Source: Pseudomonadota bacterium (GTDB lineage Bacteria > Pseudomonadota > Alphaproteobacteria > Rhizobiales > Aestuariivirgaceae). From it: a stretch of 45,181 bases of DNA. Position 1 is the stretch's first letter, and the number at the start of each line of letters is the position of its first letter. Location of the stretch: positions 1 through 45,181 of the forward strand of contig JAIUNJ010000013.1 in the NCBI GenBank assembly GCA_020161855.1. The letters are read 5' to 3'. Made by a program: the position numbers and the translations under genes. This document shows, piece after piece, positions 2,983-45,181 of the stretch. A model generated the notes under the pieces. The model made no database searches. It was given only the letters and a program-made list of their open reading frames with translations, and was not told where the DNA came from.

Positions 2983-4741
2983 CTGCCGCCTTGCGCTTGC
3001 CGCCGAGAATCTTGCGCAGCTCGCGTTCGATTGCTGCCGCTGCACCCACCAGCGCCCGCCTGTGCCGTGCCAGGGCCTTGCGCTGCAGGGTGGCAATGCT
3101 GGTGGTGTCGAGCCCTGCAAGGATCGCGGCCAGTTCCTCCGCCGCAAGCCGCGCTCCGGCATAGCTCTCGGCTTCGGGCTGAGCCCGCAGGCCGGTGCGG
3201 AGCGTGATGCCCATGGTGTGCAGGTCTTCCTCCGCCACGGCGGCCTTGGCCCGGTACCAGCAGTAGGTCAGGTTCTCGAGGAAGGCGATGATGTCGCTCT
3301 TGTCGCGGATGCCGCCGATCCAGGCGCGGAAGTCCCCGGGCGTACCGGGAAAGGCATTGATGTAGCGCGCCACGTCGAGCCCCGGTTCATGTGCGCCATC
3401 GGGATGGGTGATGCCTTCGAGGCCCATGAGCTGCTTGGTGCGCGCCACGATCCGCTCGTGCACGCCGCGGTCCCTGACATCGGGATCGAAGGCCTTCAGC
3501 AGGGTGACCGCAGCCCCGCGCCGTTCGGGGTCCTTCACCGCATGCGAGAACAACGCCTGTTTCTCGAGCCACGTATTGATGGCCTGGCGGTTGGCCAGTG
3601 AGCGCTGGGTCAGCACGGCGAGCGGGCCGATCGCCTTCGCCATGCGGACAAGGCTGAAATTCGTCTCGGCCAGGGCTGTGACCGAGAATGTGTTGATGAC
3701 GCCTCCCAGCATGCGGTCATCATGGGCATCATAGATCGGCCCCACATGCACGCTGCGCCTGCCGCTCAGCGGCCATTTCTGGTTCACCGGCACGGCAAGC
3801 TTCATCTGCCGCGGAATGGGCACGATCGGATCGCCGGAATTGCGGTCTGCCAGCGACAGGGCCTGTGGCGTCAGCGAAAGAAGATAGTAGCCCGGCGCCC
3901 CGCCAATGGCCTTCTGCAGCGGCATGAAGAGGCAGCACTTGGTCATCACCTTGTGGGTCATCTCCTGGCCCCAGGTCATGGCTCCCAGAAGCGATGTGGC
4001 ATCGATCACCGCGTGATGATTGGCGGCATCGGCATCGAGCCAGTTGATCAGGTGCTGCACATCGATCCGCGAATAGGTGCTGGCGCCCGTTGTCTCGTGG
4101 CCCACGCCGAAGAACAGCTTCACGCCGCGCCCGGTCAGCTCCATCGCCGGCGGGATATGGCCGTCGCTCTCGGCAAAGATGAGGCGCGTGTCATCGCCCT
4201 CCTTGGCGTGCTGCATGAGCTCCACCAGCTGGCTCGCCCAGGACTGCCGGAAAAAGCCCGCACCCGCTGCCTCATCGCTCTCCGGCGGCGGCGTGTCGAC
4301 ATAGATCATCTGCTGGAAGTCGCCGGGGGCAACGAAATGCGAAGCCGCAACCGTGAAACCCGTGTGCCCGCCACCGAGGCCAATGGCCAGCCGGTTGGAG
4401 CGGGGAAAACCGAAATAGCGGTGAACGGACCGCATCAGGTCGAGCAGTATGGCATCAGCCGGTGCGCCGCGATGCATGGAACGGGCGATTTCCGGCGCGG
4501 TGACGGGGCCGATATCCACGCCCTTGTCATTGCGCTTGCGGTAGGTTTCTTCGAGCCAATGCTCGAACTCATGGCGGTTGCGCCGCGCCATGATCTCGTC
4601 GCTCATGGCATCGCTGATGGGACCTACGCCAAAGAAGGGGTTGGAGGTGCGCGCAGGCGGGCCGCCCTTGCTGGCCAGCAAGGCAAGGGCATGCAGCTTC
4701 CGGAGATCGTCAATGGTCTCGTCCATGGCGTTGCTGCGCAT
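2909..4741 (-). CDS. Stand-alone SerC-like aminotransferase (class V, PLP)
   Basis: A 610-aa cytosolic protein resembling phosphoserine aminotransferases of the Methanosarcina/alphaproteobacterial type. The PLP lysine is probably K277 in MPLQKAIGG, and D247 in IDATSLLGAM is the likely ring-nitrogen aspartate. GVGHETTGAS (about 213-221) matches the substrate loop. It is far longer than a usual SerC (about 370-390 aa). It is paralogous to the aminotransferase part of the protein encoded at 4792-7767, 50 bp upstream on the same strand, so the two are probably co-transcribed. After about residue 530 comes the helical AEELAAIL tail that the paralogue also has, then a Lys/Arg/Ser/Pro-rich end (about 582-610), part of which is antisense to mbfA. 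The substrate is unknown. The alternative start M6 (4726) has no better ribosome site. Confidence 0.8.
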   Translation of the reverse strand: MRSNAMDETIDDLRKLHALALLASKGGPPARTSNPFFGVGPISDAMSDEIMARRNRHEFEHWLEETYRKRNDKGVDIGPVTAPEIARSMHRGAPADAILLDLMRSVHRYFGFPRSNRLAIGLGGGHTGFTVAASHFVAPGDFQQMIYVDTPPPESDEAAGAGFFRQSWASQLVELMQHAKEGDDTRLIFAESDGHIPPAMELTGRGVKLFFGVGHETTGASTYSRIDVQHLINWLDADAANHHAVIDATSLLGAMTWGQEMTHKVMTKCCLFMPLQKAIGGAPGYYLLSLTPQALSLADRNSGDPIVPIPRQMKLAVPVNQKWPLSGRRSVHVGPIYDAHDDRMLGGVINTFSVTALAETNFSLVRMAKAIGPLAVLTQRSLANRQAINTWLEKQALFSHAVKDPERRGAAVTLLKAFDPDVRDRGVHERIVARTKQLMGLEGITHPDGAHEPGLDVARYINAFPGTPGDFRAWIGGIRDKSDIIAFLENLTYCWYRAKAAVAEEDLHTMGITLRTGLRAQPEAESYAGARLAAEELAAILAGLDTTSIATLQRKALARHRRALVGAAAAIERELRKILGGKRKAAATRSRSKSPSGKPKSPRPRSGKRP

Positions 4742-4791
4742 TCATCGCCGCCATGACCGCCGCCCGCAAGCAGAAAGTGCGCGCTCCGCCG

Positions 4792-7767
4792 TCAGTCGCC
4801 GTAGTAGGGCCCTTCAAGTCCGAGTGCCCGCAACCTTGTCTGCAGGCTGTTGGCTGCCTTGAGCAGGCCCGCACCATGGCGGTCGACCTGCAGAGTCGCG
4901 AGATCAGGCTGGCTCGTGGCGTGGAGTGCGGCGAGGATTGCCGCCACTTCCTCGGCAAGGCCACGCAATTCGCCAAAAGCGGCCCGGTCCTTGACGGCTG
5001 TCATGAGATCGTTGCGGGTGACCCGGCCCACGCCGCGCACGGTGCTCGGCCCGGCATTGACGAGGCCCTGCGGAAGGTCGCCCTTAAGATTGCTGACCCG
5101 GCCGAACTGAATGAGATCAAAGATCTGGTCAACGGCCTGCTTGGCGCCTTCGACACGCGACACATGCTCGGTATCGGCGGCAGCATGCGGCAGCAGTTCG
5201 AGCCTGCCCTTGTATTTCTTCGCCAGCGGCAGATAGGGCACCAGCGGACCTGTCAGCGTCTTGCCCGCCTTGAAGATGTCAGCATCGATTGCGGCGTAAC
5301 GCACCTTGCCGGACTTCATGGCGCGGTCGAGCGCCTTCACATCCACGCATTCGCCACGGTCGTAATTCAGGACGATGGCGCCATGGTTAAGCTTTCCGAG
5401 AACGGTGGCCCCGATCACACCGGCATTGGCAAAGCGCTTGTTCTTCGCATCGAACGGCCCAAGCCCTGTATGCACGCTGATGACATCGGCACCGGTTGCT
5501 GCCTCTTCCGCCGTTGCAGCAAAGGCGAAGCCCTCCGATTCGATCCACACACGGTGGCGCGGGCGAGCATGCACCCGCACCTTCATCCCGAACATGGCCG
5601 AGAGATGCGCCACCTCGCGGCCGATGTTGCCATAGCCGATGATGGCCATGGTCTTGCCTTCCAGCTTCTCGGTGGGAAAATCCTTCAGGTCCTTGCCGGT
5701 ATCGAAACGACCGGCGGAGGCGCGCTTGTGCAACTCCACCACGTCGAGATCGGGCAGTACCTTAAGGAGCGCCTTCATGGTCATCTGTGCGGTGGCACGG
5801 CTGTTGAAGCTCGGCGTGTTCATCAGTGCTGCCGTGCCGCCTGCGCCATTGCCGCCGCCCCAGCAGGCGCATTGCATGTTGCCGGTCCCAGCCCCGATCC
5901 GCACGCCGCCCTGGGTGAAGACCGCATCCTTCGGCAGGAAGGTTGCAGCGGCAATGACAGCGTCGAACTGGCCGTCTTTGGTCAAAGGCAGGATTTCGGC
6001 CTCGGTCGAGAGATCGGGCAGATAGAAGAAGTGAATGTGGCCCGGTGCGTAGGTTTTCTTCGGGCTCGGCGCACCGGCATGAAAGAGGCCACCCTTGGCC
6101 TCGACATGGGCCTTGACCTCGCTGTGATCCGGCTTGCCCTTCCTGTCGAAGCGCAGCCCAACGAGATCGGCGATCAGCACCTTGTAGGCTTTGTCCGCCT
6201 GATCCCTGCGCTCCAGCGCGGCGGCCGCTTGCGGCGCAGGAAAACGGACACCAAGCTTGTCCAGTTCCTCCTCGAGCACCACAATCTTGGCACGGCGGTA
6301 GGCATAGGCGAGGTTTTCCAGCAGCGCAACGATATCGGCCACATCGCGGATACCGCCGATCCAGGCACGATAGTCACCCGGCGTACCGGGGAAGGCATTG
6401 ACATAGCGCGCCACATCGAGGCCCTGTTCGCGAACACCGTTCGGATGGGTGAGACCTTCGACACCGAGAAGCTGCTTCGAGCGGGCGATGATGCGGGCAT
6501 GTATCGCAATATCGGAGATATCGGGATCATTGATGCGGAGCAGCGTCACGGCAGCTCCGCGCCGTTCGGCCTCGGCCACGCCCAGCTGCAGCAGTGCCTG
6601 CCCGGCAATCCACTCATTGATGGCGGTGCGATTTGCCGCCGAACGGGCGTTCATGGCCGAAACAGGACCGAGCATGCCGGCAACACGCTGCAGGCCAAAG
6701 GTCGTCTCGGCAAAGGCGAGTGTCGAGAAGGTATTGATGACGCCACCCAGCATCTTGTCGGCAGACGGATCATAGAAGGGACCGATGTTGACACTGCGCT
6801 CACCGGTCAGCGGCTTGCGCTGGTCGAGCGGTGTTGCGAGCTTCAATTGCCGCGGGATGGCAGTGATTGGCGCCTTGGCATTGCGTTCCACCAGCGCCAG
6901 CGCCTGTGGCGTGAAGGAGATAACAAAATAGCCCGAAATGCCGCCGATGGCCTTCTGGAAAGGCATGAAGAAGCAGCACTTGGCGGTCACCTCGCGCACC
7001 AGCTCGTCGCCCCATGGCATGGCGCCGAGCAGCGATGTGGCGTCGAGCATGGCATGATGCTCTTCGGGATTGCTGTCGAGCCAGGCGAGAAGATTGCGGA
7101 TTTCCTGCTTGGTGTAGGTGGTGGCACCCGTCGTCTCATGGCCGACTCCAAAGACAAGCTTCACACCCTTCGCCTGGAGTTCTTCCGGCGCCGGGATCAC
7201 ACCTTCGCTGCCAGAAAAATGCAGACGGCTCTCATCGCCGCCCTTTGACAGGCGCATGAGTTCGACAATCTGCGCGCCCCAGGACTGGCGGAAGAAGCCG
7301 CCGGCATTTGCCGCCTCGCTCTCCGGGCGTGGCGTGTCGATGTAGATGCCCTGGCTGGCGGCATCGCCGCTGATCAGATGCAGGGCCGCAACCGTGAAGC
7401 CGGAATGACCGCCGCCAAGTCCGACGGCCATGCGGTTCGCTTTCGGGAAACCGAAATAGCGGTGAATCTCCCGCATCATATCGAGGATGAATTTGTCGGC
7501 CGGGTAGCCACGGTGCATGGAGCGCCCGATCTCCGCCGCCGTAAAGGGGCCGATGTCGTTGCCCTTGTCGTCGAGCTTGCGGTAGTTGGCCTCCAGCCAA
7601 TGCTCAAAGGCGAAGCGGATGCGCCGGGCCTCAACCTCATCGGCTGCGGCATCGGTGATCGGGCCCACGCCGAAGAAGGGATTGATGGTGCGCCCCGGCG
7701 CGCCACCCGCCGTTGCCGCCAGGGCAGCCTCACGCTGGACTTTCAGGCTCTCAATCGTCGCTGTCAT
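4792..7767 (-). CDS. SerC-like aminotransferase fused to SerA-like 2-hydroxyacid dehydrogenase
   Basis: A 991-aa fusion. Residues about 25-510 are a class V PLP aminotransferase like SerC, with probable catalytic K272 (MPFQKAIGG), D242 (LDATSLLGAM) and the GVGHETTGAT loop. Residues about 570-900 resemble D-3-phosphoglycerate dehydrogenase: a Rossmann motif GYGNIGRE at 711-718, the active-site arginine in NYDRGECVD (R804) and the histidine in LLPHAAADT (H861). The glutamate normally found near the DVFPxE segment is not obvious (here IDADIFKAG). Residues about 935-991 repeat the helical tail of the neighbour at 2909-4741. SerA and SerC catalyse successive serine-biosynthesis steps, and PdxB with SerC does so for PLP, so the fusion suggests a coupled oxidation and transamination. 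The true substrate is unknown. The gene lies 148 bp after xylG. Confidence 0.85.
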   Translation of the reverse strand: MTATIESLKVQREAALAATAGGAPGRTINPFFGVGPITDAAADEVEARRIRFAFEHWLEANYRKLDDKGNDIGPFTAAEIGRSMHRGYPADKFILDMMREIHRYFGFPKANRMAVGLGGGHSGFTVAALHLISGDAASQGIYIDTPRPESEAANAGGFFRQSWGAQIVELMRLSKGGDESRLHFSGSEGVIPAPEELQAKGVKLVFGVGHETTGATTYTKQEIRNLLAWLDSNPEEHHAMLDATSLLGAMPWGDELVREVTAKCCFFMPFQKAIGGISGYFVISFTPQALALVERNAKAPITAIPRQLKLATPLDQRKPLTGERSVNIGPFYDPSADKMLGGVINTFSTLAFAETTFGLQRVAGMLGPVSAMNARSAANRTAINEWIAGQALLQLGVAEAERRGAAVTLLRINDPDISDIAIHARIIARSKQLLGVEGLTHPNGVREQGLDVARYVNAFPGTPGDYRAWIGGIRDVADIVALLENLAYAYRRAKIVVLEEELDKLGVRFPAPQAAAALERRDQADKAYKVLIADLVGLRFDRKGKPDHSEVKAHVEAKGGLFHAGAPSPKKTYAPGHIHFFYLPDLSTEAEILPLTKDGQFDAVIAAATFLPKDAVFTQGGVRIGAGTGNMQCACWGGGNGAGGTAALMNTPSFNSRATAQMTMKALLKVLPDLDVVELHKRASAGRFDTGKDLKDFPTEKLEGKTMAIIGYGNIGREVAHLSAMFGMKVRVHARPRHRVWIESEGFAFAATAEEAATGADVISVHTGLGPFDAKNKRFANAGVIGATVLGKLNHGAIVLNYDRGECVDVKALDRAMKSGKVRYAAIDADIFKAGKTLTGPLVPYLPLAKKYKGRLELLPHAAADTEHVSRVEGAKQAVDQIFDLIQFGRVSNLKGDLPQGLVNAGPSTVRGVGRVTRNDLMTAVKDRAAFGELRGLAEEVAAILAALHATSQPDLATLQVDRHGAGLLKAANSLQTRLRALGLEGPYYGD

Positions 7768-36223: not shown

Positions 36224-36301
36224 GCACCCGTAGCTCAGCTGGATCAGAGCGCTGCCCTCCGAAGGCAGAGGTCACAGGTTCGAATCCTGTCGGGTGCGCC
36301 A
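36224..36301 (+). tRNA. tRNA-Arg(CCG)
   Basis: A full cloverleaf can be drawn. The acceptor stem is GCACCCG (36224-36230) with CGGGTGC (36291-36297), then G and an encoded CCA (36299-36301). The D arm is GCTC/GAGC, the anticodon stem CTGCC/GGCAG with loop CTCCGAA (anticodon CCG), and the T arm ACAGG/CCTGT with loop TTCGAAT. The D-loop is one base longer than in the E. coli homologue. The sequence becomes markedly less GC-rich immediately after it, which fits use of its 3' end as an integration site. Confidence 0.96.
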
Positions 36302-36544
36302 ATTTCTTAAATAAATACAGTGGTTTAACCGCCGTTGAATTTTTTGTTCTCTGGATTCTTAATTCACGGAAGCGAGGCGGAAGCAATCGACCTTGTATTC
36401 GCATTCCGAAGCAAGTGAGTGCACTTAGGCTAGACCGCGGAAGAGTTCCGTTTCTGTTAACGGCAAACATACAAAGTGAACCCTCGGCGATCCTTCTAGC
36501 ACGATGATTGCAGCGCGTTTGATCCCAGTCACAAGGAGGCAATA
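36302..36544. other. AT-richer junction after tRNA-Arg
   Basis: 243 bp with no gene, visibly richer in A and T than the DNA left of the tRNA. It includes a TTTTTT run near 36340 that could end the tRNA transcript. No integrase gene or copy of the tRNA 3' end was found nearby. It leads into a small gene with a strong ribosome site. Confidence 0.4.
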
Positions 36545-36847
36545 ATGGGATCGGTGGTTCGCACTCACGCATATGTTAATGTCACATTCAAAGAAGGCGA
36601 CGGTGTTTTTGTCGATCTGCCTGATGAAATCGAAGAGGTACTCGCCGCTATAGCAGATAGAGAGGGCGTGGACCTCTACAACGGCCAGACTTTTCAGCTA
36701 TCGTTTCCTGTTTCGACCGAGGAAAGTGAGGAGGGAGATCGACCGTTCTTCGTTACTGTTCGTTGTTCGGACGAATTGTTCAAGCTGCAGGCGCTGCTAC
36801 CGAAACTTGGCACCTTCTCCTTCAATAAACTAGCATTCAGTGGCTAG
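36545..36847 (+). CDS. Small acidic protein of unknown function
   Basis: A 100-aa protein I do not recognise. It is acidic (GDGVFVDLPDEIEEVLA, STEESEEGDRP), with alternating strand and helix character and no signal peptide or membrane segment. AGGAGG lies 7 nt before the ATG, a far better site than most in this window, which argues that it is translated. It is the first gene after tRNA-Arg and lies 295 bp upstream of the SNF2-type helicase on the same strand. It could be part of the defence cassette or separate island cargo. Confidence 0.65.
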   Translation: MGSVVRTHAYVNVTFKEGDGVFVDLPDEIEEVLAAIADREGVDLYNGQTFQLSFPVSTEESEEGDRPFFVTVRCSDELFKLQALLPKLGTFSFNKLAFSG

Positions 36848-37142
36848 AATAGGGTTCAATAAAGTCCCACGTGCTGCACAGTGACATTCACTCCTTCCTT
36901 CGCGCTGAAACGGCACTCTGCGCTATGTCCCGCGCTCCCAGTGCTTGAGTTGTAGTTTATCTGGGTCAAACTCGGGAATTCGTAGCCGGAGTCGCCGCTC
37001 CTTCGCAACAGGGTGCAACAGAAAGCCAAGTCCCAAAATAACTGACCGCAAAGGCTGGCTGTAGACAACTGCCCGGAAGACCGTGGTGTTTTGTCCAAGT
37101 CCTTCTATTCTAGGGTGTATTGAGGATTCGGCCCGGATTGTC
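36848..37142. other. Region upstream of the defence operon
   Basis: 295 bp with no convincing gene. Short minus-strand frames (36856-37098, 36923-37144) lack ribosome sites and recognisable products. The promoter of the helicase-to-Res operon most likely lies here. No clear operator or hairpin with a T-tract was seen. Confidence 0.35.
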
Positions 37143-39989
37143 ATGACTTACACCCACTATCACAGCCAATACTTAGCCCATCGTGTGACACTTGAAGGTG
37201 TGGACGACGATGCCTTTGCCAAGTCTCTCTCAACGGCAAAGGTTCAAATGAACCCGCATCAGGTTGACGCAGCCCTCTTTGCGCTTCAACCACCTGTGCC
37301 GAGAGGCGCAATTCTTGCTGACGAAGTCGGTCTAGGGAAAACGATTGAGGCAAGCCTCGTTATCGCCCAGCGGTGGGCTGAAAAGCGGCGGCGAATCCTG
37401 CTCATCGTGCCCGCATCTCTTCGCAAGCAGTGGACACAAGAACTTCTGGAGAAATTCGGCCTGCAAGCCACCATCCTTGAATCCAAGAGTTACAAGGAAG
37501 CGAAGAAGCAGGGAGTGAAGCAACCTTTTGAGGTAGAAGACCGCATTGTCGTCACTTCATATGAGTTCGCTGCACTGAAGGAAGACGATGTAGTCAAGGT
37601 CGATTGGGACCTTGTGATCTTCGACGAAGCGCACAGGCTAAGGAACGTCTACAAGAAAGGCGCGTCACTTCGCGCCAAGGCACTGCAACGAGCGGTAAAG
37701 AACAACTTCAAGCTACTGCTTACCGCGACTCCTCTCCAGAACTCGCTGATGGAACTGTTCGGGCTGGTTTCGATCATTGACGAAAAGCTGTTCGGTGACG
37801 AGGCCAGTTTCAAAATCAACTACGGTGGCAAGCCCAATGCAGGAAACCTTGCAATTCTGCGCGACAGGCTCAAACCCATTTGCCTTCGAACCCTGCGAAA
37901 AGATGTACAAGCTGCCGGACACATCAACTACACCAAGCGCCTGCCAACAACTTTCAAGTTCGAACCCGACGAGGATGAGCAGCAGCTGTATGAGGGCCTT
38001 TCTGCCTACCTGAAGCGCAAGGACACAATTGCTTTTGGTGATAAGCCCAACCAGCTCGTCACCCTCGTGGTCCGCAAAATCCTTGGTTCCTCCACGTTCG
38101 CTGTCGCTGACACCCTTGCAGCTATCATAGAACGGCTCAGAAAGTTGCAGCCTGTTGAGCCGGATGACCTCGCAGACATCGACACAACCGAGGAACTCAA
38201 GGAAGAGTGGACAGACCAAAGCGATGAAGCGCAGCCACCTCAGTCAAACGTCGATCCGGTTCTCCTGAAACAGGAAATTGCGGAACTTGAAGGCTATCGC
38301 AATCTAGCACTCAGCATCCATCAGAACGCTAAGGGCCGCGCCCTCATTTCGAAACTGGGCAATGTTCTTGACGAGATCGTCGCAAAGAACGGTTCCCGAA
38401 AGGCGGTCATTTTCACTGAATCCGTTCGAACCCAGAAGTATCTCGCTGAGTTGCTGTCCGCCAATGGATACCAAGGACAAATTGCCCTGATGAACGGTTC
38501 CAATAGTGATGCAGAGAGCCAACACATCTACGAAGACTGGAAGAAGCGCCATGCAGGGTCTGACGCCATTTCAGGCTCAAAGACCGCAGACATGAAGGCG
38601 GCAATCGTCGAAGCCTTCAAGAAGGACAAAACCATCCTCATCGCTACTGAATCGGGTGCAGAGGGTATCAACCTTCAGTTCTGCTCCCTCCTCATCAATT
38701 TCGATCTGCCTTGGAACCCGCAACGCGTCGAGCAACGCATAGGCCGATGTCACCGATACGGTCAGAAGATCGACGTGATGGTAATCAACTTCCTCAACAC
38801 GAAGAACAGGGCTGAAGAGCGCATTCTCGAATTGCTAGAGCACAAGTTCAATCTGTTCAGCGGTGTCTTCGGCGCGAGCGACGAAGTGCTTGGAGCCATC
38901 GAACAGGGCACCGATTTCGTCAAGCGCGTACTCGAAATTGTCCAAACCGCACGTAACGACGAAGAGATCGACAAGGCGTTCAACCAACTGCGCGATGAAC
39001 TGGGGTCGCAGATTGACACGGAAATCGTGAGCGCCCGCGAAAAACTGATGGGACATTTCGACCAGAACGTCGTCAAACGTCTCTCAGATCGCAAGGACAA
39101 GCTGCGGCGTATCCTCGGAGAGTTCGAAAGGCGGCTGATCACGATTGCTCGTGGTGAACTTCCCAACGCCGAGTTCTTCGAGCACGACGGCGATGGCAGC
39201 CCCTGCTTCAAGCACAATGGCAGCACATTCACGACCGGATGGCCGCTGGCCGATGACATGCAATGGAAGTTCTTCAGGCTCGCCGATGGCAATCTCGCAC
39301 AAGAACTTGTTGGCGCAGCCAAGGGCCGACAGCTTCCTGTCGCCAACTTGAAGCTGTCCTACGCAGGCAACGATGGCGCTGGCCAGCTTTCAGATGTCAA
39401 AATGCACATTGGCAAGAAAGGCTGGCTGAGCGTGTCTCGGCTCAGGATCAAGACAATGAAGCGCAACGTGGATCATCTTGTCGTCGCTGCAACGGCAGAT
39501 GATGGCTCAATCTTGAGTGAAGACACATTGGACAGGCTTTTCTTGCTGCCGGGTACAGCGGAAACCGTTTTGGGCCTCGAACCTCCGTCACAAGAACTGA
39601 CCAAAAAGAGGCAGGGATTGGTCGAAAAACGCTTGAAGGAAGCAGAGACCCAAAATGCCGACTTCCTGACCAAGGAGGAAGAAAAGCTGGATGCCTATGC
39701 GGATGACTTGGAAAAAGCCGCAGAAGCAGAAATCAAGCTGCTAGAAGATGAGATCAAGGCAATGCGCAAGGAGAGTCGGGGCACAGGCAGCCTTGCCGAG
39801 AAGGTCGAGATGAAACGCGCCATCAAGCGCAAGGAAGGGCAACGGGATGAGCTGCGTATGGCAATGTTCACCCGTCGGAAGGACATCCGCAAGGAAGTGG
39901 ATGACCTCTTGGACGACATGGAAGAGAGCCTGAAGGTGCAGCCGAGCGTCGAGTCCATCTTCACAGTTCGATGGGAACTCCATCCGTGA
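37143..39989 (+). CDS. SNF2-family helicase/translocase with coiled-coil tail
   Basis: A 948-aa superfamily 2 DNA translocase. Motif I is DEVGLGKTIEA (60-70) and motif II DEAH (161-164); TATPLQNS is motif III, and the second RecA domain has VIFTESVRTQKYL and the motif V/VI region ATESGAEGINLQF...QRIGRCHRYGQ. The C-terminal third (about 810-930) is highly charged and predicted coiled coil. RapA-like and DISARM DrmD-like helicases share this DEVGLGKT form. No nuclease domain is apparent. The start at 37143 is chosen because the 20 preceding codons lack helicase character, but the ribosome site is weak. It is the first of five genes read in one direction. Confidence 0.85.
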   Translation: MTYTHYHSQYLAHRVTLEGVDDDAFAKSLSTAKVQMNPHQVDAALFALQPPVPRGAILADEVGLGKTIEASLVIAQRWAEKRRRILLIVPASLRKQWTQELLEKFGLQATILESKSYKEAKKQGVKQPFEVEDRIVVTSYEFAALKEDDVVKVDWDLVIFDEAHRLRNVYKKGASLRAKALQRAVKNNFKLLLTATPLQNSLMELFGLVSIIDEKLFGDEASFKINYGGKPNAGNLAILRDRLKPICLRTLRKDVQAAGHINYTKRLPTTFKFEPDEDEQQLYEGLSAYLKRKDTIAFGDKPNQLVTLVVRKILGSSTFAVADTLAAIIERLRKLQPVEPDDLADIDTTEELKEEWTDQSDEAQPPQSNVDPVLLKQEIAELEGYRNLALSIHQNAKGRALISKLGNVLDEIVAKNGSRKAVIFTESVRTQKYLAELLSANGYQGQIALMNGSNSDAESQHIYEDWKKRHAGSDAISGSKTADMKAAIVEAFKKDKTILIATESGAEGINLQFCSLLINFDLPWNPQRVEQRIGRCHRYGQKIDVMVINFLNTKNRAEERILELLEHKFNLFSGVFGASDEVLGAIEQGTDFVKRVLEIVQTARNDEEIDKAFNQLRDELGSQIDTEIVSAREKLMGHFDQNVVKRLSDRKDKLRRILGEFERRLITIARGELPNAEFFEHDGDGSPCFKHNGSTFTTGWPLADDMQWKFFRLADGNLAQELVGAAKGRQLPVANLKLSYAGNDGAGQLSDVKMHIGKKGWLSVSRLRIKTMKRNVDHLVVAATADDGSILSEDTLDRLFLLPGTAETVLGLEPPSQELTKKRQGLVEKRLKEAETQNADFLTKEEEKLDAYADDLEKAAEAEIKLLEDEIKAMRKESRGTGSLAEKVEMKRAIKRKEGQRDELRMAMFTRRKDIRKEVDDLLDDMEESLKVQPSVESIFTVRWELHP

Positions 39990-40008
39990 AGGTGGGGTTG
40001 GTCGCAAC

Positions 40009-40902
40009 ATGGGGCTGCTGCAATCACCATTCCCAGTTGAGATTGACCTTCTCCTGCGGGGCTATGAGGGGCCGCGCTGGGATGTTTCTCCGTTTCGGCA
40101 TAGGCAGGGGTGGATGATGGTTGCCATCGCATCAATCAACACGCCGTTCGGCCCGAGCGAAGAGGTCTTGGTTGCTGCCATGACAGACCAAGGCGAGCAG
40201 TTTCCAGCTGATATTGCCGCCAAGCTGATGGACATTCCCTTCGGGCTGCCCCGGCTGTGTGAAACAGTTCCTCCTGACGAACTGGAAGAAAGCCTGCACT
40301 GGCAATACTGGGACTTTCTTGGCAGCAGCGACCTCGAAAGTCTGGCGAAGCTGGAGGAAGCCGACGCTGATCTTGAGCGGAAGATCAGCGCCATCGAGAG
40401 AGAGTGCAAAGAAATCGTCGGCATGGCGTGGCAGGCCATGAACAAACTGCGGCATGATCGCCGCCAAAGTGATTTGACGACAATGCAGAGAGCGGGAATC
40501 GCCGATCAATTGCGCCGGTTGGAGACAGTACCAGAAGAGGTGGGAAAACTCGTGAACTCACGAGTCTCCCGGCTTCGCAGAACTCACGAGCAGCTTGAAG
40601 ACGCCATACTGGCATCACTGCAAGGCCACGGCGAGTTTGCCGTTCTGGGCACACTGCGATGGAAGGCGCAGTCGGGATACGCACCCTCACCGCTCGGAGA
40701 CAACGAAATCCGCGTTGGCGTTCCGGTGCCAAAGAACCAACTGGCATTCATCCGAGACGAGTTTGCACGCTCGCTGCGGAATGCATTCAGCAGGCTGGAA
40801 GAACGCGTTGGCTCACTGATCAACAGCATCGAATACAACGATGAATTGGACTCCGATAAGATTCGGCATTTAAAAAAGGTTCTGGCAGAGATGCTAACCT
40901 AG
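40009..40902 (+). CDS. Unrecognised coiled-coil protein of the helicase operon
   Basis: A 297-aa cytosolic protein I cannot assign to a family. An N-terminal folded part (about 1-100) precedes a long charged heptad region (about 105-205, with LEEADADLERKISAIERE) and a C-terminal domain with VGVPVPKNQLAFIRDEFARSLRNAF. No catalytic motif, signal or membrane segment is seen. It starts 19 nt after the helicase stop with a GGTGGGG ribosome site, so it is probably co-translated. A partner or specificity role for the helicase, whose tail is also coiled coil, is inferred only. Confidence 0.75.
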   Translation: MGLLQSPFPVEIDLLLRGYEGPRWDVSPFRHRQGWMMVAIASINTPFGPSEEVLVAAMTDQGEQFPADIAAKLMDIPFGLPRLCETVPPDELEESLHWQYWDFLGSSDLESLAKLEEADADLERKISAIERECKEIVGMAWQAMNKLRHDRRQSDLTTMQRAGIADQLRRLETVPEEVGKLVNSRVSRLRRTHEQLEDAILASLQGHGEFAVLGTLRWKAQSGYAPSPLGDNEIRVGVPVPKNQLAFIRDEFARSLRNAFSRLEERVGSLINSIEYNDELDSDKIRHLKKVLAEMLT

Positions 40903-40935
40903 ATTGATAAAGGCATCAGCAAGCAGGGGGATGGT

Positions 40936-41334
40936 GTGACGGGCGCAATTACAAAGGGGCTGATTATCGACGAGCCGTGGATTTCTGCAATTCTATCTGG
41001 TCGCAAGACATGGGAGATGCGGAAGACGAACTGCAGACTTCGAGGCGACATCGCGCTCATACGAAAGGGATCGGGCTTGCTCGTCGGGACTGCTTCTGTG
41101 GTGGGCTGCGAGCTGCCCTTGGACTCGCTTGCGAAGTATGCAGCCGCTGAATCAAAGCACTGCATTCCTACGGATCGGCAGCAAAAAGCCTTTTCTGATG
41201 GTTGGCGCATTCCATGGGTTTTGGCCAATGCTCGAACCCTGAAGAATCCTGTTCGCTACAATCACCCATATGGGGCCGTCATCTGGGTCAATCTCGAACC
41301 AGATGCAATCGCATCCGTCAACGTGCAGGTCTGA
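40936..41334 (+). CDS. ASCH-like (PUA-fold) protein
   Basis: A 132-aa small protein. The N-terminal KGLIIDEPWISAILSGRKTWEMRKT closely follows the ASCH pattern, in which a compound binds beside a G-x-K-T/x-E-x-R segment. RGDIALIRKGSGLLVGTASVVG matches the following strands. ASCH domains are PUA-related, are thought to bind RNA or modified nucleotides, and some have nuclease activity. The start is a GTG at 40936 directly behind AGGGGG; the ATG at 40931 is closed by a stop after two codons. It lies between the coiled-coil gene and mod, which is unusual for a type III RM locus. Confidence 0.75.
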   Translation: MTGAITKGLIIDEPWISAILSGRKTWEMRKTNCRLRGDIALIRKGSGLLVGTASVVGCELPLDSLAKYAAAESKHCIPTDRQQKAFSDGWRIPWVLANARTLKNPVRYNHPYGAVIWVNLEPDAIASVNVQV

Positions 41335-41342
41335 AAAGAGAA

Positions 41343-43013
41343 ATGTCACGTAAACAGAAACTGGAACTCACATGGATCGGGAAGGACGAGCGGCCTCGCC
41401 TTGAGCCGCGAATCCTGATTGAGGACCCGTCAAAGAGTTACCATGCCGCTGCCAAGCGCGAGGGTGACGTCTTCGACAATATGCTCATCCATGGCGACAA
41501 CCTTTTGGCTTTAAAGGCGCTAGAAAGCGACGAGCGGGTGAAGGGTAAGGTCAAATGTGTGTTCATTGATCCGCCTTACAATACGGGGTCGGCCTTTGAG
41601 CACTATGACGATGGCATTGAACATTCGCTTTGGTTGTCGCTCATGCGAGACAGGCTTGAGATAATAAAAAGTCTGTTGGCTGACGACGGTTCGCTCTGGA
41701 TCACAATTGATGACAATGAGGCTCATTATCTCAAGGTTCTCTGTGATGAAGTTTTCGGAAGGAGCAACTTCGTTGCAAACATCGTTTGGCAGAAGCGAAC
41801 CTCGCCTGAAGCCCGATTGATTCTGGGACCAGCTCACGACGACCTGCTTGTCTACGCCAAAGATGCCTCTCAAGTAGAGATGAACAGGCTTTCTCGAAGC
41901 GAAGAGCAGCAAAAAAACTTCAAGAATCTTGACGATGATCCACGAGGACCTTGGGCCTCAAGTGACTTTACGGCTCAAGGGTGGCGACCTAATCAGATGT
42001 ACAAGATCACTACGCCCGCCGGAGCAGTATTTGAACCTCCTCCGGGACGCTGTTGGGGAAACATTGAACCCGAGTTCTTGAAGTTGCTCGCCGACAATCG
42101 AATGTGGTTTGGCAAAGACGGTACCGCCAGACCAAGAGTAAAGACATTCTTGTCGGAACAAGAGGGTGTCAGTTCTTGGACTTGGTGGCCGAATTCGGAA
42201 GTCGGTCATAATCAAGAAGCCAAGAAGGAAAGCATTGCCCTTTTTGGACCGGACAACGCGTTCGCTACTCCAAAACCTGAGCGCCTCCTAGCGCGAGCCA
42301 TTGAACTTGCAACTCAGAAGGGCGAATTGGTTCTCGATTCATTTGCTGGTTCTGGCACCACTGGGGCGGTCGCCCACAAGATGGGACGTCGTTGGATAAT
42401 GGTGGAGTTGGGAGATCACGCCAACACGCACATCGTGCCACGCCTAAAGAAAGTCATCGATGGCACTGATCAAGGCGGTGTGACAGAACCCACAGGCTGG
42501 AATGGTGGCGGCGGCTTCCGGTTCTATAATCTCGCGCCATCATTGTTGGAACGAGACAAGTGGGACCGCTGGGTGATCTCAAAGGACTACAATGCTGCCA
42601 TGCTTGCTGAGGCCATGTGCAAGCATATGGGATTCACCTATTCCCCGTCCCAAGACAAAGCAGAGTATTGGCGGCATGGCCACTCTTCTGAACGCGACTT
42701 CATATTCGTTACCACGCTATCCCTCACCCACGAGCAGTTGCGGGCCATATCCGAGGACGTTGGACCGGACCGGACACTTCTTATCTGCTGCAAAGCATTC
42801 CATGCCCGTGTGGAAGATTTCGAGAACCTAACCGTTACAAAGATTCCCCATGCCATCCTTTCCCGCTGCGAGTGGGGCAAGGACGACTACAGCTTGAACA
42901 TTGCTAAGCTGCCGGAACGGGAGCCTGAGCCCGAGCCACCCACTGAACCGAAGGCAAAAGCGAAGGCTGCTAAACCCGCCATGCCATCCCTCTTCGACAA
43001 TGGGCAGGAGTGA
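41343..43013 (+). CDS. Type III restriction-modification DNA methyltransferase (Mod)
   Basis: A 556-aa adenine-N6 methyltransferase of the beta class. Catalytic motif IV DPPYNTGSAF comes first (about 80) and the AdoMet-binding motif I DSFAGSGTTGAVAHKMGRRWIMVELG later (about 335-360), with the target-recognition region between and after. It probably provides sequence recognition for the Res subunit that follows. The start at 41343 has a purine run upstream and lies 8 nt after the ASCH-like stop. The frame further upstream lies in that gene. The C-terminus is Glu/Pro/Lys/Ala-rich. Confidence 0.92.
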   Translation: MSRKQKLELTWIGKDERPRLEPRILIEDPSKSYHAAAKREGDVFDNMLIHGDNLLALKALESDERVKGKVKCVFIDPPYNTGSAFEHYDDGIEHSLWLSLMRDRLEIIKSLLADDGSLWITIDDNEAHYLKVLCDEVFGRSNFVANIVWQKRTSPEARLILGPAHDDLLVYAKDASQVEMNRLSRSEEQQKNFKNLDDDPRGPWASSDFTAQGWRPNQMYKITTPAGAVFEPPPGRCWGNIEPEFLKLLADNRMWFGKDGTARPRVKTFLSEQEGVSSWTWWPNSEVGHNQEAKKESIALFGPDNAFATPKPERLLARAIELATQKGELVLDSFAGSGTTGAVAHKMGRRWIMVELGDHANTHIVPRLKKVIDGTDQGGVTEPTGWNGGGGFRFYNLAPSLLERDKWDRWVISKDYNAAMLAEAMCKHMGFTYSPSQDKAEYWRHGHSSERDFIFVTTLSLTHEQLRAISEDVGPDRTLLICCKAFHARVEDFENLTVTKIPHAILSRCEWGKDDYSLNIAKLPEREPEPEPPTEPKAKAKAAKPAMPSLFDNGQE

Positions 43014-43016
43014 GCA

Positions 43017-45181
43017 ATGGCAATCCCTTCTGCTTCCGCCATTCCCGTTGACCGCCTCATCCGCCAGATCACCGCGCGAATGTCGTTGCGTAAGCCACAG
43101 GAGCGCAGCCTCGAAATTCTTCATTGGGTGCAGGATGTGCTTGTGGGCAAGACGGACATCGCCGCCACTCTTGCGGCCATTCAGTTTCTTGCCGGTGGCG
43201 ACGTGCAGAAAGTTGAGGAGTTCGAGCGCGATTTCGTGTCGCTTTGCTTCGCCTTGGCAACAGGTGTGGGCAAGACCCGTTTGATGGGTGCCTTCATCAC
43301 CTATCTTGCATTGACGGGCCGGTCCAAGCACTTCTTTGTGCTGGCCCCCAACACCACCATCTATGAGAAGTTGATCGAGGACTTCACTCCCGGCAAACCC
43401 AAATACGTGTTCAAGGGCATTGCCGAGTTTGCCCAATCCCCCCCACAACTGGTGACCGGCGACAACTGGGATCAAGGCCGTGGCCTTCGCCGCCAAGGCG
43501 AACTGATCGACGCTGATGTCATCATTAACATCTTCAACGTGGACAAGATCAACAAGGATGTTGGCCGCATCCGCAAGCTGCACGAGGTCATTGGTGAGAG
43601 TTACTATGAGTATCTCGCCGGATTACCTGACCTCGTCTTGCTGATGGATGAAGCGCACCGCTATCGTGCCAAATCAGGATTCAAAGCCATTGCGGACCTC
43701 AAGCCAATGTTGGGCATTGAGCTGACGGCTACACCGAAAACGGTTGGAGCACAGTCCCGAGACTTCAAGAACGTCATATACCGCTATGGTCTCGCGGAGG
43801 CGATGGAAGATGGTTTCGTCAAAGAACCTGCTGTCGCCACCCGCAAAAACTTCGATCCCCGCAATCTGAACGACGATGAGCTGGAGAAGATCAAGCTGGA
43901 GGATGGCGTTCAGGCTCACGAGAACGTCAAGCTGAAGCTGATCGACTATTCGCAGAAGTCAGGGGCGAAACTGGTTCACCCTTTCATGCTGGTTGTGGCG
44001 CAAGACACAACCCATGCCGAGGCCATCCGGCAACGTATCGAGTCGGACGCCTTCTTCTTGGGTCGGTACAAGGGCCGCGTGATCCGCGTGGACTCTGCAT
44101 TAAAGGGCGAGGAAAGCGAAGAAGCGACCAGCAGGCTTGTTGCGTTGGAGCATGATGGCGCAACCGAGATCGTCATTCACGTCAACAAGCTGAAGGAAGG
44201 CTGGGACGTCACAAATCTGTACACCATCGTCCCTCTGCGAGCGTCGGCATCCGACATTCTGACAGAGCAGACCCTTGGGCGTGGCCTCCGGCTTCCCTAT
44301 GGCCAGCGAACGGGTGACGAGGCGATTGATACACTCACGGTCATCGCTCATGACCGCTTTGACGAAGTGATCAAGAAGGCGAGGGAGCCCGGTTCGATTA
44401 CCATGAAAGCCGTGGAGATCGACGCAGGTGGCAAGGTTTGGCGCAATGGGGAAACGGAACTGGTTTCCCAATCCGTTGTTGAGTCCATGGTTTCAGGTCC
44501 GCCGCCATCAGCAAGCGGCGAAATGGCTGAACGCCCGCAGTCACCTTATGTCTTCGACACGCCGGAGGCCCAAAACTACGCCACAGTGACCTATCAGGTC
44601 ATCAAGCAGATGGAACGCGAGTTGCCGAATCTTAAGCAGCTTGAACAGCCTGAGGTTCGCGCCAAGATCACGCAGCGTGTGGAAGAGATGATGCAGCCCT
44701 TGCAGGGTTCATTTGAAGGCATTGTGGCCAAGCCAGATGCGGCGAAGATCGTGGAAGCAGTGACGACAATTGTCGTCAACAACACAATTGAAATTCCTGA
44801 AATCGTGGTCGTGCCCACTGGCGATGTCACATTCGGCTTCAAAGACTTCGATCTAACGGGGTTGGATAGCGTTGCACCGCAGCCCCTCTCAGAAGAAATT
44901 ATCGTTCAACAACTGCGCACCGAAAGCCGCCAGACCATCAACCGAAGTCTTGCGGTAGTGCGTGAAGACCGATTGGAAGACTATCTCGTCGTTCACCTGA
45001 TCGACTTTGAGCAAGTAGACTACGACGCAAACTCCGACCTGCTCTATAAACTTGCAGGCCAAATGCTCGCCCGGCTTCGATCATACCTACCGGATGATGA
45101 TGCAGTCGAAAATGTCTTGCTTCACCAAGGCAAACGGCTTGCCGACATTATCATTGGCCAAATGATGAAGAACTACACCGA
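43017..45181 (+). CDS. Type III restriction enzyme Res subunit (helicase part; truncated by window edge)
   Basis: The reading frame is open from ATG 43017 through the last base (721 codons plus 2 nt), so the gene continues beyond the window. The visible part is a superfamily 2 helicase: Walker A ATGVGKTR (about 80-87), DEAH (211-214) in LLMDEAHRY, a TATPKT motif and a late segment with TLGRGLRLPYG. The PD-(D/E)xK nuclease usually at the C-terminus of Res lies outside the window and was not seen. GGCAGGAG precedes the start, and it lies 3 nt after mod. Together they form the type III RM pair. Confidence 0.92.
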   Translation, partial: MAIPSASAIPVDRLIRQITARMSLRKPQERSLEILHWVQDVLVGKTDIAATLAAIQFLAGGDVQKVEEFERDFVSLCFALATGVGKTRLMGAFITYLALTGRSKHFFVLAPNTTIYEKLIEDFTPGKPKYVFKGIAEFAQSPPQLVTGDNWDQGRGLRRQGELIDADVIINIFNVDKINKDVGRIRKLHEVIGESYYEYLAGLPDLVLLMDEAHRYRAKSGFKAIADLKPMLGIELTATPKTVGAQSRDFKNVIYRYGLAEAMEDGFVKEPAVATRKNFDPRNLNDDELEKIKLEDGVQAHENVKLKLIDYSQKSGAKLVHPFMLVVAQDTTHAEAIRQRIESDAFFLGRYKGRVIRVDSALKGEESEEATSRLVALEHDGATEIVIHVNKLKEGWDVTNLYTIVPLRASASDILTEQTLGRGLRLPYGQRTGDEAIDTLTVIAHDRFDEVIKKAREPGSITMKAVEIDAGGKVWRNGETELVSQSVVESMVSGPPPSASGEMAERPQSPYVFDTPEAQNYATVTYQVIKQMERELPNLKQLEQPEVRAKITQRVEEMMQPLQGSFEGIVAKPDAAKIVEAVTTIVVNNTIEIPEIVVVPTGDVTFGFKDFDLTGLDSVAPQPLSEEIIVQQLRTESRQTINRSLAVVREDRLEDYLVVHLIDFEQVDYDANSDLLYKLAGQMLARLRSYLPDDDAVENVLLHQGKRLADIIIGQMMKNYT

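Follow-up and report, generated by a model that had tools for sequence, protein, structure and literature searches.

Contig JAIUNJ010000013.1 of an alphaproteobacterium of the Aestuariivirgaceae (assembly GCA_020161855.1) was analysed over its entire 45,181 nt, referred to here as the window (contig C3 of the genome, ending at 45181), and carries at its right end a restriction operon in which the gene for a SNF2 protein comes first, those for a type III methyltransferase (Mod) and a type III restriction subunit (Res) come last, and genes for a coiled-coil protein and an ASCH protein lie between. Certain lineages of type III Mod and Res occur together with this SNF2 gene and have evolved in parallel with it, and this core linkage is solid. 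The locus is probably, as judged from sequence comparison, a variant of type III restriction-modification (RM) in which a RapA-like motor is a third core component and the interval between SNF2 and Mod is a slot for swappable cargo. Loci used for comparison carry L numbers, and C7 is a second contig of the same genome.

Linkage of SNF2 with Mod and Res

Relatives were gathered with scans that aligned SNF2 only, giving 80 genome loci (the best of 558 relatives) and 77 distinct loci on viral contigs (the best of 340), each of which was scored by open reading frame (ORF) calling and iterated profile searches with SNF2, Mod and Res. An SNF2 of at least 800 bits was taken as a member of the clade, and at least 7 kb of downstream sequence was required for the forward count. 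A Mod lies on the same strand in 47/51 genome and 27/29 viral-contig clade loci, compared with 2/5 and 1/23 of the lower-scoring SNF2s; after deduplication a Mod accompanies 71 of 77 clade SNF2s and 3 of 27 others (Fisher p 6e-15, a value that ignores relatedness). All ten plasmid loci picked by SNF2 have a Mod (the L009 fusion lies outside this set), as do 7/8 SNF2 loci in genomes of the window's order and class; the 385 genomes of the class hold six other matches to the SNF2 at E <=1e-100, two of which, on contigs of less than 5 kb, are left out of that count. Judged from record titles, the genome loci that have Mod (54) come from about 13 phylum-level groups; many of these loci are from metagenome bins, for which mis-binning is possible. 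Gene order varies: in L066, L074, L085, L129 and L135 Mod comes ahead of SNF2, both on one strand.

The linkage was also followed in reverse, from viral-contig loci found by Res (29) or by Mod (79 scored), with at least 4 kb upstream required. This SNF2 is present in 16/18 loci found by Res with a score of at least 700 (15 on the same strand) and in 15/17 found by Mod with a score of at least 590 (14 on the same strand). It is missing from all 36 loci in which Mod has an ordinary Res as partner (score 50-200; 4 kb of upstream sequence in 28) and from all 14 Mod loci from genomes of the class (4 kb in ten). The original prediction, which saw here an enlarged type III locus, is therefore borne out in that the SNF2 gene belongs and is no chance neighbour; its helicase part is upheld, clade SNF2s being found mostly with Mod and not apart from mod-res.

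Because the score classes were trained on SNF2-linked loci, a tree of Mod (159 rows, quick LG+G4) was built, which is free of that circularity. SNF2 linkage requires 14 changes on this tree against a mean of 50.5 when shuffled, and none of 500 shuffles was as low. The SNF2-linked Mods form two groups, the first with 62 rows, the window among them (49 linked, support 99), and the second with 46 (45 linked, support 95). Among the 13 unlinked rows of the window's group, three are cut upstream (L252, L257, L260), eight have no match to Res, in some because the contig ends (L193, L256, L264, L268, L278, L280, L296, L320), and two have Res but no SNF2 (L258, L314). Pairwise distances over 40 loci are correlated for SNF2 and Res (r 0.82), Mod and Res (0.78) and SNF2 and Mod (0.55), none of which was reached in 999 permutations.

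Mod and Res as type III enzymes

The window's Mod and Res both match PADLOC type III models and in both, as in the SNF2, the catalytic motifs are present. Mod is of the beta class, with DPPY ahead of the FxGxG motif and a variable region between them, and its profile matches two Mods in the PDB, one of them that of EcoP15I. In Res a PD-(D/E)XK nuclease comes after an SF2 helicase-type ATPase, the nuclease lying on C7, where Pfam RE_endonuc scores 20.1 bits, below its cut-off of 23.4 (a relative scores 25.4); the Res profile finds the EcoP15I Res weakly (E 3e-8). Further hallmarks of type III systems are a Mod2Res1 complex, hemimethylation and cleavage that needs two head-to-head sites. With type III RM as described for EcoP15I in passages of PMC4490356 the locus shares a beta-class Mod with a variable middle, a Res that combines SF2 ATPase and PD-(D/E)XK nuclease, and the order mod before res, but it differs in that the unit includes a SNF2 gene and a cargo slot between SNF2 and Mod, and in its divergent Res lineage. 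It is not a locus of mod and res only, since SNF2 is linked to them, and it is for this reason that we name it a variant.

Two flavours of the enzymes occur, both type III according to PADLOC: that of the window, with a Mod of ~550-600 aa and a Res of ~900 aa, and a longer one with a Mod of ~1040 aa and a Res of ~1100 aa (for example L016); sizes between the two are also found. The window's Res lineage is rare in the class sample, its own Res being the sole match at E <=1e-40 in the 385 genomes.

Several unusual relatives were encountered. Viral contigs carry Mods of this lineage for which no match to Res was found, at L256 (9846-11662), L264, L278, L320 and, at a contig end, L268; in L256 a 48-residue remnant of the SNF2 C-terminus is kept before Mod. 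The separate places of these Mods in the Mod tree suggest repeated capture, perhaps for self-protection. On a Thioclava plasmid (L009:9781-13482) SNF2, up to about residue 826 of the window's protein, is fused in frame to the end of Res, and no Mod gene is annotated beside the fusion, whilst on an Aeromonas plasmid (L012:13630-19670) Mod is in two pieces separated by an insertion sequence.

The cargo slot

In the 98 loci with Mod downstream of SNF2 the gap between them is at most 150 bp in 45, including overlapping junctions, and at least 300 bp in 52. The genes in this slot are diverse, and a few gaps have small ORFs only (L010). A scan of 71 proteins (68 of the 76 cargo genes of at least 90 aa, the window's two and one from L099) gave Pfam matches to SMC_N (15), AAA_21 (14), AIPR (8), SLFN_AlbA_2 (5), DUF4276 (4), SIR2_2 (3), HerA (DUF87; 2) and Abi_2 (1); PADLOC matches include the mad3, PtuA, AriA, AbiU and HEC-01A models, many overlapping in the AAA part. 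Many slot genes are of known defence families; in the window the slot is occupied by the coiled-coil and ASCH genes.

The embedding of defence genes in immune systems has reportedly been the subject of a 2024 preprint by Payne et al. PrrC is a guard-type effector of the type I system EcoprrI, and it is possible, and compatible with the reading that we favour, that cargo genes likewise act as guard-type effectors, triggered by a block of the core, with the coiled-coil and ASCH proteins of the window as an effector or its switch. What points this way are the names of the cargo families found elsewhere (AIPR, Abi_2, SIR2, Schlafen, and AAA families matching PADLOC PtuA, AriA and AbiU) together with the DarTG embedded in a type I RM system in a passage of PMC12255303; against it, searches of Pfam, PADLOC and NCBIfam recognised no toxin or nuclease domain in either of the window's two proteins. 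The DarTG locus shares with ours the presence of cargo inside a restriction operon and differs in that the window's slot lies between a SNF2 gene and a type III Mod.

The coiled-coil protein had been regarded as an orphan, a description that no longer applies: the 297-aa protein is, by sequence alignments and predicted folds, a free-standing copy of the SNF2 C-terminal domain plus a helical tail. Its residues 21-218 align with residues 747-944 of the SNF2 of the same operon (BLASTP, 21% identity, E 3e-5), and a profile of two sequences, the window protein and its L099 relative, finds dozens of SNF2 C-termini (best match outside the seeds 63.5 bits, E 2e-17) as well as the same domain in a 527-aa protein of L007. 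AlphaFold models of the coiled-coil protein and of SNF2 (pLDDT, the predicted local distance difference test, 82.7 and 83.5) agree in the order of their main elements, which is two long strands, a short helix, a long helical hairpin and a closing strand, over residues 33-221 and 759-947 respectively, the SNF2 having one extra short strand. Searches with the coiled-coil protein alone, which needed near-exact short peptides, confirmed nothing in genome contigs or viral contigs, and the link to the SNF2 C-terminus came from later tblastn and profile searches. A fold search with its own model gave mostly coiled-coil look-alikes and no match at E <=0.001, a RapA chain (8t0l_F) being fourth at E 0.037, and the link of this domain to RapA therefore rests on the SNF2 model.

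The free-standing gene is found in only two other SNF2 loci, L099 and L007, and in L296, where the domain and Mod occur alone. L099 (1329-5013) has the closest SNF2 relative found (68%), with the coiled-coil gene ~10 nt after it. In L296 (8901-11146) the C-terminal domain stands by itself (233 aa, 43% identical to residues 747-946 of the window's SNF2) directly before Mod and has no motor part; the contig, which by eye looks phage-like with RecA-like and SMC/SbcC-like genes, ends within Mod. This arrangement fits a partnership of the C-terminal domain with Mod but could also be an accident of gene capture, which has to be considered because L256 holds just its short remnant at the same place.

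The ASCH protein (PF04266, 29.2 bits against a cut-off of 21.2) has relatives by tblastn in plasmids (32 records) and Vibrio phages (20 records). No Mod or Res above 40 bits was found in eight ASCH contexts, four from those records and four viral-contig loci on three contigs, and no relative was found between SNF2 and Mod in any other locus (phmmer against ORFs from 333 loci, many of which lack SNF2). Its place in a set with the type III enzymes is accordingly refuted, since its homologues are found apart from mod-res, and the ASCH family recurs beside SNF2 proteins in two further loci rather than beside type III enzymes. In L151 (9665-19759) the ASCH gene overlaps the end of a SNF2 gene of another clade, so that the reader domain comes directly after SNF2, near its place in the window; two large genes follow, whose products we take, from their motifs, to be a COG1743-type methylase and an ATPase. 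In L335 the ASCH gene follows an HmaA-type SNF2 (1587 bits), and in L334 the neighbouring 'helicase-related protein' has no match to the SNF2 profile. A SNF2, a methyltransferase and a PUA-fold reader in one operon are likewise found in the COG1743-DUF499-SWI2/SNF2 systems with EVE (in passages of PMC7641849) and in BREX-related systems with ASCH or RAMA readers (in passages of PMC12839542), but these differ from the window in having another SNF2 clade, another methylase and no type III Res. The window's methylase is type III according to PADLOC, not of the COG1743 type, and no DUF499-type ATPase was found with Pfam among six window and seven C7 proteins.

All five genes together were found in no other locus examined, so that one defined five-gene system, as had been proposed, is rejected.

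The SNF2 protein

The window's SNF2 is a protein of the double-stranded DNA (dsDNA) translocase type, and the suggestion that the system may be able to translocate along DNA would for such a protein be a fair one. The five best Foldseek matches of its model are all RapA; in this predicted structure the alignment covers residues 4-948, C-terminal domain included, and the fold is similar over the whole chain. The model aligns with full-length RapA (6bog) only from residue 124 and lacks RapA's N-terminal domain, which a passage of PMC12839542 describes as a tandem TUDOR pair. The window's SNF2 differs from RapA in this and in its location in a mobile restriction operon. The whole-chain match to a protein that recycles RNA polymerase would suit a RapA-like transcription regulator, of its own operon or of an invader, with Mod-Res alone restricting; we think this unlikely given the missing N-terminal domain and an NCBIfam RapA equivalog score of 174 bits against a cut-off of 576.

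It seems somewhat less likely still that a standard two-gene type III system merely shares an island with an unrelated SNF2 defence gene and accessories, the unit being mod-res only. Defence genes do cluster, the element described below also carries DarTG, and Mod and Res are recognised by type III models; such an assortment is at odds with linkage in 71/77 against 3/27 loci, short or overlapping junctions in 45/98, parallel divergence and occurrence in many phyla.

DISARM class 1 comprises a DrmD SNF2 helicase, an adenine methylase, DrmA, DrmB and DrmC. The window shares with it a SNF2 helicase gene adjoining an adenine methylase gene, and differs in that no DrmA, DrmB or DrmC was found at the locus and that its methylase is a type III Mod with Res. 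The top PADLOC match of the SNF2 is a DrmD model (635 bits), but the protein scores 631.7 bits against a cut-off of 950 for NCBIfam DrmD_b (seven relatives 605.6-722.3), and a match to DrmA at 144.6 bits reflects common helicase similarity. Neither DrmB nor DrmC is among the PADLOC matches listed for six window proteins or four C7 neighbours, and no MZB domain, which we take to be that of DrmB, was found in the 92%-complete genome. On these grounds DISARM identity is rejected, and a degenerate or divergent DISARM or BREX-like system with the SNF2 as DrmD is very improbable.

Operon layout and mobile element

The five plus-strand genes from SNF2 to Res are separated by 19, 33, 8 and 3 nt, exactly as first described (Table 1). 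The interval 36224..45181 that had been given for the operon stands as regards these genes but not at its ends, as its start is the tRNA-Arg integration site, outside the operon, and Res is incomplete. The SNF2 start at 37143 was chosen by alignment with relatives, a longer GTG start at 37083 being less likely.

Table 1. Features of the operon and of the element that appears to carry it
Feature	Position	Strand	Details
tRNA-Arg (CCG)	36224..36301	+	Integration site of the element; ARAGORN
attL	36255..36301		tRNA 3' end as 47-bp perfect direct repeat; second copy C7:9138-9184
100-aa protein, first island gene	36545..36847	+	Family unassigned; no Pfam, PADLOC or NCBIfam match
SNF2, core gene 1	37143..39989	+	948 aa; ATG start; PF00176 126 bits
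SNF2 C-terminal domain	39384..39986	+	~Residues 748-948; beta-beta-alpha, long antiparallel coiled coil, closing strand
Coiled-coil protein, cargo	40009..40902	+	297 aa; free-standing copy of SNF2 C-terminal domain (~residues 11-222) plus helical tail
ASCH (PUA-fold) protein, cargo	40936..41334	+	132 aa; GTG start; PF04266
Mod, core gene 2	41343..43013	+	Beta-class DNA methyltransferase; N6_N4_Mtase 152 bits; DPPYN, variable middle, FAGSGTT
Res, core gene 3	43017..45181	+	First 721 aa; SF2 ATPase (ATGVGKT, MDEAH); ResIII 75 bits
DarTG pair	C7 (= L192):634-2340		PADLOC DarG 456.5 bits, DarT 190.2 bits
Tyrosine integrase	C7:7775-9115	-	PF00589 77 bits; beside second repeat copy

Res is broken off by the end of the contig, and its remainder opens C7: the nuclease end (PDFVVET..LIVEIKAK) lies at C7:2-574, and C7:5-559 matches residues 709-892 of a relative's Res, nuclease motif included. 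From the split Res and the two copies of the repeat, C3 and C7 are inferred to be neighbours, and if they are, the operon lies on an integrative element of ~18.1 kb at tRNA-Arg. The hallmarks of a tRNA-targeted integrative element are there: the 3' end of the tRNA is repeated at both flanks, and a tyrosine integrase gene adjoins one of the copies. The end of Res on C7 is followed in order by DarG and DarT homologues, a small HTH_17 protein, the integrase and the repeat. The G+C content is 60-65% up to ~35 kb and 52-56% beyond the tRNA; with this drop and with the core order found in dozens of unrelated loci, the arrangement is more than chance. In the four same-genus genomes compared the tRNA and the left flank also adjoin each other, and an empty attachment site was not demonstrated, as these genomes match the left flank and the tRNA and nothing to the right of the repeat. 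The 100-aa protein has no relative in plasmids either. In another SNF2 locus, L216, the neighbouring genes (4494-6190) encode first residues that by eye resemble the DarG and DarT of this element.

Proposed function

In the variant type III system that we favour, Mod would mark the host's recognition sites and Res, with its own ATPase and its PD-(D/E)XK nuclease, would cut unmarked DNA. The SNF2 motor would move along dsDNA, loading, moving or releasing Mod-Res complexes or acting on obstacles, and would dock on Mod-Res through its C-terminal domain; in EcoP15I the sliding set off by Res does the job of the motor alone. These roles we infer from linkage, fold and position. Cargo genes would be add-ons controlled by the core or docked on it. 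In the window the extra C-terminal domain may serve as adaptor or competitor at this docking site, and the ASCH protein may recognise (modified) bases in cooperation with SNF2. A bolder version, which we put forward only tentatively, makes the motor an obligatory third subunit of a widespread type III branch, with the C-terminal domain docking Mod; free copies of it would act in trans. Bacteria would use them to plug in swappable effectors and readers such as ASCH, and phages, having picked up a Mod as in L296, to label phage DNA or to obstruct the restriction machinery.

A number of points weigh against the idea of a three-component core. Selection of the best 80 from 558 and from 340 relatives favours close relatives, and in the reverse counts 11 of the 29 Res loci were set aside (upstream cut or Res below 700 bits) together with 23 of the 79 Mod loci (below 590 bits and without ordinary Res), 2 of the latter having SNF2 and 21 lacking it; several of the 23 are at contig ends or in phages. 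The split into score classes is partly circular, the Mod tree has no outgroup, and SNF2 and Mod diverge in parallel only loosely (r 0.55). No same-strand Mod was found with the SNF2 of L058, L079, L081, L082 and L216, Mod-Res is on the opposite strand in L132, and the near-identical, prophage-like L243 and L244 have Mod-Res of this lineage and no SNF2, Mod being split in L244. In L099, a single case, no Mod or Res was found in the 9 kb following the SNF2 and coiled-coil genes. Finally, what linkage and parallel divergence establish is joint inheritance and not a physical complex.

Among the model libraries and literature passages searched, no described system agrees with the window's set in every gene. 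No description of SNF2-Mod-Res as a unit was found in that literature, outside which most subscription papers lie, so that this is not proof of novelty; the unit is absent from the passages of PMC12839542, PMC10853773, PMC7641849, PMC12458937, PMC11090510, PMC12255303, PMC13092281, PMC12137116, PMC4490356 and PMC7251935. SWI2/SNF2 and Mod/Res are named among the genes near CoCoNuTs in a figure legend of PMC11090510, and an earlier published sighting is therefore possible.

Model libraries split the unit into 'type III RM' and 'DrmD', and the system and its cargo slot are thus easily overlooked. Type III restriction is taught as a two-subunit process for which Res-triggered sliding is sufficient; should an entire type III branch depend on SNF2 as a separate motor, long-range communication in that branch would work by another mechanism. 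The cargo slot is a ready source of new defence genes, and with the free-standing C-terminal domain the contacts that cargo or phage proteins might make with the core can be approached directly.

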